Shown one piece after another: positions 98-44,277 of a stretch of DNA of 64,000 nucleotides (its first letter is position 1; each line of letters opens with the position of its first letter). The notes beneath the pieces were generated by a model, which worked only from the letters and a program-made list of their open reading frames with translations, did not search any database and was not told where the DNA came from. The position numbers were made by a program, and so were the translations under genes. Origin of the DNA: an uncultured Methylococcaceae bacterium (GTDB lineage: Bacteria; Pseudomonadota; Gammaproteobacteria; Methylococcales; Methylomonadaceae). The stretch is taken from assembly GCA_903928685.1 (NCBI GenBank), contig CAIYRS010000001.1, forward strand, positions 1 through 64,000, written 5' to 3'.

Positions 98-2137
98 TCA
101 AGCATTAATGCCATTATGCCGTAACAACGCGTCGATGGTCGGTTTGCGCCCACGGAATTGCACAAACAAATCCATGGCGTTTTGGCTGCCGCCTTTTTCT
201 AGGATGTTGGTTAAAAATGCGTCGCCGGTGTCGCGGTCAAAAATGCCGCGTTCTTCAAACAAAGAAAACGCATCGCTGGACAGCACTTCTGCCCATTTGT
301 AACTGTAATATCCCGCTGCGTAACCGCCTGCAAAAATATGTGAGAAGCTGTGGGCGAAGCGGTTGAAATGCGGTGGTTTGATGACGGCGATTTGGTTTCT
401 GACTTGATCTAAAATCTCGTAAATCCGTCCGCCTTTGGTTGGGTCGTATTCGTGGTGGATTTTGAAATCAAACAAGCTAAATTCCAATTGCCTTAGCATA
501 AACATACCTGCTTGGAAGTTTTTTGCCGCCAGCATTTTGGCAAACAAGTCTTCGGGTAGGGGTTCGCCTGTTTGGTAATGCCCGGACATCAGCACCAGCG
601 CGTCTTGTTCCCAGCACCAGTTTTCCATGAATTGGCTAGGCAGTTCCACGGCATCCCATTCCACGCCGTTTATGCCGGATACGCCCAAGTGATCGACTAA
701 GGTCAGCATGTGGTGTAGGCCGTGTCCAAATTCATGGAATAGCGTGGTGACTTCGTCGTGGGTCAACAGGGCAGGGGTGTCGCCTGTTGGCGGGGTGAAG
801 TTGCAGGTTAAGTAGGCGACGGGCAGTTGCACGTCGTTTTCGGTGCGTTTACGGCCTACGCAATCATCCATCCAAGCGCCGCCACGTTTTTTGGCGCGGG
901 CGTATAGGTCTAAATAAAACTGGCCTCGGATGTTGCCGTTTTTGTCGTGGATTTGGAAAAATTGTACGTCGGGATGCCAGCTATCAAATTCGCTGATGGC
1001 TTCTATTTGTAAGCCATAAAGCCGTTCAACCACGGTGAATAAGCCTGCTAATACGCGGTTGGCGGGAAAGTAGGTTTTTACTTCTTCTTGGGAGAGTTGG
1101 TAAAAATGCTGGCGCATTTTTTCTGAGTAGTAGCTCATGTCCCAAGATTGCAAATCGGCGATGCCATAGTATTGCTCGGCGAATTCGCGCAGTTCTGCCA
1201 AGTCTTTTCTGCCTTGCCGCCAAGATTTATCGGCTAAGTCTTCTAAAAAGCTAATGACATCTTCTGGTTTGTCGGCCATTTTTGCGGCTAAGGATAATTC
1301 CGCGTAGTTGTTAAAGCCAAGTAGCTGGGCTTTTTCATGGCGTAACGCTAAGGTTTGTTCCATGATGTCGGTGTTGTCCCAGCGTCCGGCATCGGGGCCT
1401 TGGTCGGAGGCGCGGGTGGCGAAGGCTTGGTAGTGTTCTTGGCGCAATTCGCGGTTGTCGGCGTAAGTCATGACCGCCGAGTAAGACGGGAATTGCAGAT
1501 TAATCAACCAGCCTTCTAGTCCTTCTTGCTCCGCCGCTTGTTTGGCTTGCGCTAGCGCTGAGGGTGGTAATCCGGTCAGTTCCAGTTCGTCGGTGATGTG
1601 TTTTTTCCACGCATTGGTGGCATCCATCAGGTTTTCTTCGTATTTGCTGGCAAGGTTGGACTGTTCTAAGCTGATGGCTTTGTAGCGCTGTTGTTTGTCT
1701 TCGTCTAAGCCTATGCCGGATAAGGTGAAATCACGCAGGGCATTGTTGATGATTTTTTGCTGGGCGGTGGCTAATGCGGCAAAACTGTCGCTGCTGGCAA
1801 TTTGCTGATAAGCCTTGTACAGACCTTGGTTTTGTCCCATTTCAGTCGAGTATTCGCTGAGTTTTGGCAAGCAGGCGTTGTAGGCTTCGCGCAATTCGTC
1901 GCTGTTGACCACGGAATTCAGGTGGCTTACGGGTGACCAAGCTTTGCTCAGTCGGTCTTCGGCATTGGCTATCGGCTCAACGAGGTTTTCCCAAGTGTAT
2001 TCGCTATTGGCTTGCAGGCACTTTTCGACAACGCTACGGGCGTTTGCCAATAATTCATCGATGGCGGGTTCGACGTGTTCGGCGCGGATTTGGGGGAAAA
2101 GTGGTAATTTGGAATCAGCTAATAAAGGATTGTTCAT
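98..2137 (-). CDS. prlC: oligopeptidase A, M3 family zinc metallopeptidase
   Basis: Cytoplasmic zinc oligopeptidase that degrades short peptides such as cleaved signal peptides. The M3 zinc-binding motif HEFGH lies near residue 466, the usual place, and the protein has the family length (679 aa against 680 in E. coli). The N-terminus MNNPLL and the later SPVSHLNSV and NALRDF segments match E. coli OpdA closely. An ATG five codons upstream exists, but the internal MNNPLL start fits the family, so it was chosen. The gene stands alone; the next gene on the same strand, an RDD protein, lies just upstream. Family assignment is secure; substrate range is not visible. Confidence 0.96.
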   Translation of the reverse strand: MNNPLLADSKLPLFPQIRAEHVEPAIDELLANARSVVEKCLQANSEYTWENLVEPIANAEDRLSKAWSPVSHLNSVVNSDELREAYNACLPKLSEYSTEMGQNQGLYKAYQQIASSDSFAALATAQQKIINNALRDFTLSGIGLDEDKQQRYKAISLEQSNLASKYEENLMDATNAWKKHITDELELTGLPPSALAQAKQAAEQEGLEGWLINLQFPSYSAVMTYADNRELRQEHYQAFATRASDQGPDAGRWDNTDIMEQTLALRHEKAQLLGFNNYAELSLAAKMADKPEDVISFLEDLADKSWRQGRKDLAELREFAEQYYGIADLQSWDMSYYSEKMRQHFYQLSQEEVKTYFPANRVLAGLFTVVERLYGLQIEAISEFDSWHPDVQFFQIHDKNGNIRGQFYLDLYARAKKRGGAWMDDCVGRKRTENDVQLPVAYLTCNFTPPTGDTPALLTHDEVTTLFHEFGHGLHHMLTLVDHLGVSGINGVEWDAVELPSQFMENWCWEQDALVLMSGHYQTGEPLPEDLFAKMLAAKNFQAGMFMLRQLEFSLFDFKIHHEYDPTKGGRIYEILDQVRNQIAVIKPPHFNRFAHSFSHIFAGGYAAGYYSYKWAEVLSSDAFSLFEERGIFDRDTGDAFLTNILEKGGSQNAMDLFVQFRGRKPTIDALLRHNGINA

Positions 2138-23548: not shown

Positions 23549-23588
23549 AAAAAAAAGCGCGATACCTAGGAGTTTTAGGTTATCGCGC
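23549..23588 (-). terminator. Rho-independent terminator (minus strand)
   Basis: GCGCGATACCT and AGGTTATCGCGC pair with one bulged base. On the minus strand the stem is followed by eight consecutive Ts. It ends whatever is transcribed leftwards from about 23650. Confidence 0.7.
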
Positions 23589-23650
23589 TATTGCTTCCGA
23601 CAAAAAGCAAAAATATCACGAGGAGGTCAAACACGCAGTTGAGAGCGTGT
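23549..23650 (-). ncRNA. candidate small RNA or attenuated leader
   Basis: A transcript starting near 23650 on the minus strand would be about 100 nt. It would contain a first hairpin (ACACGC/GCGTGT, 8-nt loop), a single-stranded pyrimidine-rich stretch with CCTCCT (complementary to a Shine-Dalgarno sequence), and a terminator hairpin (23557-23588) followed by eight Ts (23549-23556). A sigma-54-type promoter precedes it. No family was recognised. Because the MFS gene starts about 140 nt downstream, it could instead be that gene's leader with an attenuator. Confidence 0.4.
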
Positions 23651-23660
23651 AATACTTAAA

Positions 23661-23675
23661 GCAGAATTGATGCCA
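23661..23675 (-). promoter_or_regulatory. candidate sigma-54 promoter (-24/-12)
   Basis: The minus strand reads TTGGCATCAATTCTGCTTT. The GG and GC doublets are separated by exactly 10 nt, as required for sigma-54, and the flanking TGGCA and TGCT match the consensus. No enhancer-binding site was identified. The rest of 23676-24074 shows a short palindrome (TTTGCACT/AGTGCAAA at 23801-23819) and no gene I can support. Confidence 0.45.
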
Positions 23676-23800
23676 ATGTTGTTTTTAAATTTCAAGTAAT
23701 TGAATTTAATTAAATTATTTTGATTTCTAAAGGCGCGATTAGCGGCGCTAAACCTCGCCAGAAAATTATTGCACCAAATATATTCAACAAAATTAAATTT

Positions 23801-23819
23801 TTTGCACTATCAGTGCAAA
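23801..23819. promoter_or_regulatory. palindrome, possible operator
   Basis: TTTGCACT and AGTGCAAA flank a 3-nt centre. It lies between the divergent MFS/small-RNA unit and the HPPD-like gene, where a regulator could act. Nothing links it to a known regulator. Confidence 0.3.
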
Positions 23820-24074
23820 GGCTGTTTATTCGTAGTGTTTTGCGCCAAAATAGTGCACTTTGTTTGGTATCCATTTTGTCATCACTGCTGTTCATCCTGT
23901 TTAAAAAAATACCTTCAACTATTCAGGCGGCAGCGGTTTTTGGCGATTGGTTGGTTTGCACGGTAAGCGGTTGTTTATGAGTTGAAAAACTCACAACGTC
24001 CAACATGTCGGTACGCGCCGATTAATAGTTGGTATAGTGCTTGCTAAAACATTGGGACTATCTCTGAGGCTTGT

Positions 24075-42642: not shown

Positions 42643-44277
42643 TTACTCCACCAAAAAGTCCCGCATCATCCCCATGTCCTCATGCTCCAAGTTGTGGCAG
42701 TGGTACATGAACAATCCTTTAAAATCTTGGAACGGTTTGATAATCCGCACCGTCTCGCCCGGCATTACCAATACGGTATCTTTTAATCCGCTGTCAATAA
42801 AACCGTCCCGGACACTGGCATAGGCTTCATCGTGGGCAGGGGCGGTACGGCTGAGGATTTGGAACTGTTGCCCGTGCAAATGGATGGGATGCGCCATCGA
42901 CATCATCCCGCCGCCCATACCACCACGCATGCCTCCCATGCCGTGGCGCATTCCACCCATACCGCCATGCCCCATCATGCCGCCTTCATGGGAAATCTCC
43001 AACAATTGCACTGTGTTGACCGGAATCCGCTCGGATGGCAAAACATCGTTGTAGGCATAAGGCCGACCGTTTAAGGTCATTGCCATCGGCGATTCACCAA
43101 TGGCAATCGGCACTGGCTTTTCGGGATTGGCAGTGTCTTGCAGTGTGTAACGCTTGAAGTGGCTCAATATGGCTGGGAGTTTGGGGCTGTCACTGACTTT
43201 GCGAGTAATTTTGAAGGTAAACACCGGATAATGGCTGCCGACGGGCAAGCCATTGCCTTGCATCATCATACCCATCATTGGCAACACTCCGCTAAATGGC
43301 AAACTGACCATGGTCAGCTCTGTGCCAACCGCCCGACCACTGAAATCCGCCCAAACATCCAAACGTTCGCCAGGGGCAAGCATGACATAAGGTTTCGTTT
43401 CAGGCCGCTCCAGCAAGCCGCCGTCCACACCAAGCACGGTCAACGGTGTGCCGTCATCCCAGGCTAATTTATAAATCCGCGCCGTCGAACCATTGAGCAA
43501 GCGTAAACGGTAAGCACGGCTGTCAACATCGACCTGCAAGTCTGCCCACCCATTAACCAAAATTCGGTCACCATAAAACCCCGCCATGCGGTCGTGCCGA
43601 TTACGCACATAAATCAATTGGTTTTGTGCATCAAATAATCGGTCTTGAATAACTAGCGGCAGCTCATACGCCCCGGACGGCAAACCCAACGCCGCCTCTT
43701 CGTCGTCATGCACAAACAACGCACCTGCCAAACCGTAGTAAACCTGCTTGGCGGTGGTTTCATGCGGATGGGGATGGTAAATATTGAGTCCGGCACGATT
43801 CACTACTTCAAATTCATAAACCCGTTTTTCGCCAGAGGCCACCGCATACAGTGGATGCCCATCCATATCCGCAGGCACATGCAGGCCATGCCAATGGGTA
43901 ATGCTTGTTTCAGGCAAGCCGTTATATAAATGAATGCGTACTTTCTGGCCTTGGTGCAAGCGGATGATCGGCCCTAGATACGAACTCGGAATTTCCGTTA
44001 CCGTTCCTGCCGAGCCATGCAGCAAATGGGCAGAATACTGCCAAACTCGGGTAGGCTCGCCGACCATAATTGCCACTGAACCGGGCTGGCAGCGCAGTTC
44101 AATTTCAACATCAGCCTTAAACGTCGGGTCGGCGCGGCGTTCTGGCATTTTGGGCATTTCCGGCATCCCTTCCATTGCCTGTAACCAGCCCGGTAACCCG
44201 GCATAAGCCAGCAAACCCAACCCAGTTTGCGTCAGAAAGCGGCGGCGGGACTTATCGCCATAAGAATTTGCAAACAT
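42643..44277 (-). CDS. multicopper oxidase, CueO/CopA-type, TAT-exported
   Basis: A 544-aa periplasmic copper enzyme that probably oxidises Cu(I) or organics to limit copper toxicity. The N-terminus has a twin-arginine signal (KSRRRFLTQTGLGLLAYAG). Copper ligands are in order: HWHGLHVPADMDG; HPHPHETT; HPIHLHGQQFQ; and MYHCHNLEHEDMGMM for the type 1/2/3 sites. A Met/Gly/His-rich insert (GGMGGMRHGMGGMRGGMGG) before the third motif resembles CueO's Met-rich copper segment. GAGGAGG lies before the ATG at 44277. Confidence 0.92.
   Translation of the reverse strand: MFANSYGDKSRRRFLTQTGLGLLAYAGLPGWLQAMEGMPEMPKMPERRADPTFKADVEIELRCQPGSVAIMVGEPTRVWQYSAHLLHGSAGTVTEIPSSYLGPIIRLHQGQKVRIHLYNGLPETSITHWHGLHVPADMDGHPLYAVASGEKRVYEFEVVNRAGLNIYHPHPHETTAKQVYYGLAGALFVHDDEEAALGLPSGAYELPLVIQDRLFDAQNQLIYVRNRHDRMAGFYGDRILVNGWADLQVDVDSRAYRLRLLNGSTARIYKLAWDDGTPLTVLGVDGGLLERPETKPYVMLAPGERLDVWADFSGRAVGTELTMVSLPFSGVLPMMGMMMQGNGLPVGSHYPVFTFKITRKVSDSPKLPAILSHFKRYTLQDTANPEKPVPIAIGESPMAMTLNGRPYAYNDVLPSERIPVNTVQLLEISHEGGMMGHGGMGGMRHGMGGMRGGMGGGMMSMAHPIHLHGQQFQILSRTAPAHDEAYASVRDGFIDSGLKDTVLVMPGETVRIIKPFQDFKGLFMYHCHNLEHEDMGMMRDFLVE

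Follow-up and report, generated by a model that had tools for sequence, protein, structure and literature searches.

A conserved candidate sigma-54-dependent small RNA with an exposed anti-Shine-Dalgarno segment in gammaproteobacterial methanotrophs

Introduction

Qrr small RNAs (sRNAs) are about 100 nt long, have a 5' hairpin and a terminator and occur in several copies; the RNA type from the 3' untranslated region (UTR) of enteric glutamine synthetase mRNA is named GlnZ. In an abstract related to Qrr, as far as it was available, LuxO is termed an NtrC homologue. In Pseudomonas aeruginosa, according to the text compared, NrsZ is a nitrogen-regulated sRNA under NtrB/C and RpoN (PMC9308961). 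Literature searches found no paper for Methylovulum with sRNA, only a Nitrospira paper for methanotroph small RNA with sigma-54, and, for methanotroph sRNA with Hfq, a synthetic sRNA in Methylomonas and an Escherichia coli paper. For Methylosinus sporium, an alphaproteobacterial methanotroph, the transcription map contains, in the portion consulted, the small RNAs EcpR1 and alpha-r45, which are conserved among Alphaproteobacteria (this map and the Methylomonas work, as a pair, from partial texts of PMC7720504 and PMC12403871).

Here, we describe a predicted sRNA gene in a 64-kb stretch of DNA from an uncultured Methylococcaceae bacterium (the window, analysed over its full length). We think it likely that the gene encodes a trans-acting, independent sRNA of about 100 nt, controlled by NtrC and sigma-54, that represses translation by pairing of CUCCU(C) with Shine-Dalgarno sequences. 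As a conserved gene, it is a concrete candidate for nitrogen control at the post-transcriptional level in gammaproteobacterial methanotrophs and, being present in cultured species, is directly testable.

Results

Features of the locus are listed in Table 1. The first-pass annotation had described a well-spaced GG-N10-GC promoter on the minus strand, a T8 intrinsic terminator about 100 nt past it, and an RNA of no known family with a 5' hairpin and an open CCTCCT. The promoter is present, and it is conserved upstream of the RNA in relatives; its location (23661-23675) was correct, with the conserved element slightly longer (23659-23676). The terminator is present as described, and fold and element order agree with the hairpin and open segment. 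A known Rfam RNA was ruled out, as no family (Qrr included) matched the window above its gathering cut-off, matches at E up to 10 were at chance level, and 20 homologous loci yielded one tRNA only. The pattern TTGGCAYN6TGCTT has its sole exact match in the window at this promoter (minus strand); with up to one mismatch it has 3 matches versus 1.45 expected, and 20 of 100 shuffles reach at least 3, so the promoter motif by itself is not significant. On the minus strand, 8 nt separate the promoter TTGGCATCAATTCTGCTT from hairpin P1 ACACGCTCTCAACTGCGTGT, and the RNA would start about 12 nt past the promoter GC (about 23650).

Table 1. Coordinates of the predicted sRNA locus and of related candidates
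Feature	Position	Strand	Basis or remark
NtrC-type upstream site TGCACTATTTTGGCGCA, 9/10 key positions	23841..23857	-	Pattern; site type enriched upstream of homologues
Palindrome TTTGCACTGATAGTGCAAA, perfect	23801..23819	-	Spacing differs from NtrC type
Second NtrC-type site TGAATATATTTGGTGCA, degenerate, 8/10	23770..23786	-	Pattern
Putative sigma-54 promoter TTGGCATCAATTCTGCTT (GG-N10-GC)	23659..23676	-	Pattern match; GGCA and TGCTT invariant in 10 sequences
Predicted small RNA, ~100 nt	23549..23650	-	Fold, homologues, alignment, covariance model
5' hairpin P1 (ACACGC/GCGUGU), ACACGCTCTCAACTGCGTGT	23631..23650	-	Fold; diverged copies
Open anti-Shine-Dalgarno segment ACCUCCUCGUG	23617..23627	-	Alignment, pairing probability
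Hairpin P2 (UUGCUUUU/GGAAGCAA), TTGCTTTTTGTCGGAAGCAA	23591..23610	-	Fold; weaker support
Intrinsic terminator hairpin and T8	23549..23589	-	Sequence, fold, alignment, covariation
Paired copies	L052:1061-1197 and 1501-1631; L054:1501-1639 and 1944-2061; L057:1501-1629 and 1991-2126		Methyloglobulus-type
Second-class candidate, own genome	G000:C66:17965-18068 = L068:966-1069		29.5 bits, E 0.018
Further second-class candidates	L069, L076, L077, L070, L209, L214		

The predicted RNA (23650-23548) folds at -32.6 kcal/mol versus -17.7 ± 3.0 in shuffles (z -4.92), and 0 of 200 dinucleotide shuffles fold as well. Its elements run from the 5' hairpin through the open CCUCCUCGUG and a second hairpin to the terminator (34-nt hairpin, then the T-run) with T8; the minus-strand open stretch after P1 reads TTGACCTCCTCGTGATATTT. 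Among 26 homologues with CTCCTCGT[AG], scored against shuffles that keep single bases only, mean z was -2.24 for P1 (23/26 below -1) and -2.37 for the terminator segment, cut at a fixed length (20/26 below -1); P2 was weaker (-1.06; 12/26) and little above shuffle stability. P1 stems of Methyloglobulus-type copies differ in sequence (ACGAAA/UUUCGU, UGAAAG/CUUUCA) and keep the same position. CUCCU occurs in 43 of 52 homologues examined, with a mean unpaired probability of 0.84 versus 0.45 for all 5-mers. As read from its letters, CCUCCUC is complementary to Shine-Dalgarno sequences, and we take the single-stranded segment to resemble the 3' end of 16S rRNA; the predicted U-tail is compatible with an Hfq-dependent sRNA. 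A coding or dual-function RNA was ruled out, as no open reading frame is common to 26 homologues.

Of 60 relatives, nine carry a DNA homologue of the 151-bp stretch (E 3.2e-4 or better); eight belong to the same genus and the ninth to a different one. In the ten-sequence alignment (mean column identity, 76%), GGCA, TGCTT and CCTCCTC are invariant, as are six T in the T-run, and its consensus fold keeps seven pairs through two-sided changes (six in the terminator, one in P1). Covariance model R1 includes promoter, CCTCCTCGTG and terminator, so its weak matches are selected for all three, and the GGCA/TGCT "pairs" in it are promoter letters, not a stem. Scoring 14 first-look candidates per genome, the family search matched 119 of 237 genomes at E up to 0.05 and 30 of 237 at 59 bits or more; the latter span 8 genera, comprise 13 of the 20 genomes of the genus and include Methylovulum miyakonense, M. 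psychrotolerans, Methylocucumis and Methyloglobulus. Seven genus genomes had no match of at least 59 bits, six of them at least 92% complete. The search reached as far as an order sample (151 genomes), in which eight genomes outside the family matched, all at E 0.0068 or weaker. Such a covariance search had been proposed with the first-pass annotation, which staked its case on conserved promoter and stem; among the genomes searched, strong matches occur only in the family, and both elements are present in relatives. Because it is conserved in relatives, the observation is not attributable to chance, and the locus has the appearance of a genuine, conserved gene.

Scanning named genomes with a sequence pattern returned 24 stretches, 19 of them from methanotrophs (Methylovulum miyakonense HT12, M. 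psychrotolerans Sph1, Methylocucumis oryzae Sn10-6, Methyloglobulus morosus KoM1 and metagenome-assembled genomes) and 5 from unrelated phyla, which look like chance matches. A phage or plasmid element was rejected (viral contigs gave no exact match to the pattern; own sequence unmatched in plasmids). Some Methyloglobulus-type genomes carry two diverged copies on the same strand, 0.4-0.5 kb apart.

Upstream sites were compared in 53 rows (best match of 30 genomes, second matches in the same loci and 20 hand-chosen places, with the five weakest of 58 rows left out and related sequences counted separately). The same five rows are missing from the counts of CUCCU, diverged P1 stems, hairpin stability, shared reading frames and exact 11-mers. 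The NtrC consensus is TGCAC-N7-GTGCA. The 300-bp regions preceding the matches lie outside R1, which makes the comparison independent of the model. A site with at least 9/10 matches was present in 16 of 53 regions, as it is in the window's own, whereas 100 rounds of shuffling averaged 0.47 and never exceeded 2; spacings of 3-6 and 8-11 instead of N7 gave 0 or 1 of 53. The sites are uneven among genera and absent at this threshold from 37 of 53 regions and from 7 of 13 core orthologues; a further 21 matches had NtrC-type sites in 6. With up to one mismatch, the own genome holds 49 NtrC-type sites versus 35 for a control pattern, so the window site (23857-23841) alone proves little. Nitrogen control of the RNA is supported by NtrC-type sites independently of the model, and expression of the gene is probably induced by nitrogen shortage. 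The palindrome TTTGCACTGATAGTGCAAA sits between the two NtrC-type sites of the window.

The own genome encodes NtrC (E 1.7e-220, above the curated cut-off) and Hfq (E 6.1e-28). In the own genome and seven relatives (G003-G009), a promoter of this same sigma-54 type lies 55-57 bp ahead of the start of a glnK-type gene, next to which an ammonium transporter gene lies downstream; NtrC-type matches at glnK of the genus are 6-8/10 only, so that glnK control supports sigma-54 more than NtrC, for which it is weak evidence. An sRNA of the same sigma-54 design whose main activator is an enhancer-binding protein other than NtrC would account for the single site of at least 9 matches among 11 Methyloglobulus-type copies, and it could draw on the ten further matches in the own genome spanning the NtrC-like central domain (NifA included) and on the differently spaced palindrome at 23819-23801. 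As the enrichment is specific to the NtrC spacing and includes the window site, we hold this reading to be rather unlikely.

A direct search for targets was unsuccessful, with no clear excess over controls and no conserved target, which points to short pairing (6-9 nt) with several targets or to another partner. The pattern ACGAGGAGGTN{3,9}ATG had 1 site in 20 genomes and its reversed control also 1; CGAGGAGGTN{3,9}ATG had 14 sites in 8 of 20 genomes versus 10 for the control, not clearly above it, and apart from one small protein common to two genomes (L131, L136) its sites were unshared. Duplexes examined at 121 start sites (window and some other loci) included no convincing target, and start regions of glnK, amtB and ntrB in seven loci showed nothing specific by eye. 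Pairing of the RNA with the start region of the own nifA is poor; among 15 of 16 nifA-like loci, the complement occurs in G006 alone, and at L150, L151, L154 and L156 the start used is probably not the true one. That of G006 (L130) reads CGAGGAGGTTAGCGTAATG, complementary to the open segment. Near 44277 (minus strand) of the window, a gene whose product shows, by eye, a Tat-like signal has the start region GAGGAGGTTTTATG, an 8-nt perfect complement of the RNA.

The complement of the 11-mer, CACGAGGAGGT, occurs 11 times in the 20 genomes, 9 of these being the sRNA gene itself; its reversed control has 0 occurrences, so avoidance cannot be claimed. The open CCUCCUCGUG might instead mainly bind a protein, another RNA or mRNA sites away from start codons. 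The 11-mer ACCUCCUCGUG is exact in 11 of 53 model matches and has two perfect complements elsewhere in the 20 genus genomes, an exactness beyond what short Shine-Dalgarno pairing seems to need, and Shine-Dalgarno-type complements are not clearly above control. On the other side, more distant relatives often retain CUCCU(C) while the flanks drift, as Shine-Dalgarno pairing predicts, with the qualification that the selecting model contains those letters and that 9 of 21 have no CTCCT in the stretch viewed. We regard another partner as unlikely and favour translational repression.

The predicted RNA lies beside a gene of the major facilitator superfamily (MFS; Pfam MFS_1; 23407-21779) on the same strand, 140 nt past the terminator, and a transglutaminase/DUF2126 gene on the other side, the latter arrangement recurring in 9 of 19 loci examined. 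Of these nine, three (L098, L103, L104) have the same MFS gene after the terminator and L106 has a different transporter of the superfamily. A circularly permuted ATP-grasp gene takes this place in L090 (by Pfam) and L101 (by BLAST likeness) and an unclassified gene in L109, while the contigs of L089 and L111 end. The next gene of L108 is on the opposite strand, and several Methyloglobulus-type copies adjoin a NamZ-like gene instead. Promoter, open segment and terminator are kept at L090, L101, L109 and L108 despite these other neighbours, the picture of a stand-alone gene with its own terminator, tied to no single downstream gene. A sigma-54-driven leader attenuating the MFS gene, the alternative offered by the first-pass annotation, would suit the order kept beside transporters, but it is highly improbable given that the gene keeps its form beside other downstream genes, and was rejected on gene order across loci.

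Weaker model matches include a second sequence class of sigma-54 sRNA candidates, spread over several genera of the family. Its members share the promoter, often have CUCUCCUG and carry a terminator (GGCGYCCTATTTTCTCG...) of type GGCGYCCTATTTTCTCGRNTAGGRCGC-T8; NtrC-type sites are present in part. A third candidate type without CUCCU occurs in two genomes (L071:982-1114, L072:1054-1186) with strong NtrC-type sites 154 bp upstream of the promoter, and L071 has TGCACATGCTTGGTGCA. Quite speculatively, and with little confidence, we raise the idea that methanotrophs of the family possess a set of NtrC/sigma-54 sRNAs of at least two sequence classes, in several copies in some genomes, which share little but an exposed CUCCU and which, as mimics of the 16S rRNA 3' end, would act as a joint nitrogen-starvation brake on mRNAs with strong Shine-Dalgarno sequences rather than as single-target regulators.

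Discussion

The idea of a sigma-54 sRNA with an exposed anti-Shine-Dalgarno segment is strongly backed by conservation, and its nitrogen control is backed by the NtrC-type sites, while the MFS leader offered beside it fell away. In the mechanism that we propose, phosphorylated NtrC, bound about 110-180 bp upstream under nitrogen shortage, would activate sigma-54 RNA polymerase at the GG-N10-GC promoter, and the transcript would stop at its own terminator. The 5' hairpin would shield the end and keep ACCUCCUCGUG single-stranded, Hfq would bind the U-tail, and CUCCU(C) would pair with the Shine-Dalgarno sequences of a set of mRNAs, whose translation would be repressed. The observations behind this scheme are sequence, conservation, predicted structure, motif enrichment, varied downstream genes and the ntrC and hfq genes of the own genome, from which we infer transcription, dependence on NtrC and Hfq, and repression as the outcome.

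In the literature searched, this sRNA family is apparently undescribed so far, new but of a known kind. The Qrr core sequence is unlike the present RNA. Qrr of Vibrio are likewise sigma-54-dependent sRNAs and differ in serving quorum sensing with LuxO or SypG as activator, in the text available (PMC10162802). NrsZ shares nitrogen control via NtrB/C and RpoN, but it is at least 226 nt long, processed, adjoins ntrC, carries the motif ACAGGCAG and activates rhlA; a CCUCC segment, present here, is not named for NrsZ in the text compared (PMC9308961). Rhizobial NfeR1/alpha-r14 resemble the present RNA in an exposed anti-Shine-Dalgarno motif and nitrogen control; as described in the sections consulted, they belong to Alphaproteobacteria, have three hairpins, each with CCUCCUCCC unpaired, and are transcribed from a sigma-70 promoter, with LsrB as activator and NtrC as repressor (PMC10746234), whereas the present locus has one CCUCCUCGUG segment between hairpins and a predicted sigma-54 promoter. 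The enteric RNA is also an sRNA tied to nitrogen limitation but, according to the part of the source seen, is released from the 3' UTR of glutamine synthetase mRNA (PMC9731577). NrsZ, NfeR1, Qrr and the enteric 3'-UTR RNA thus each share one side of the present design.
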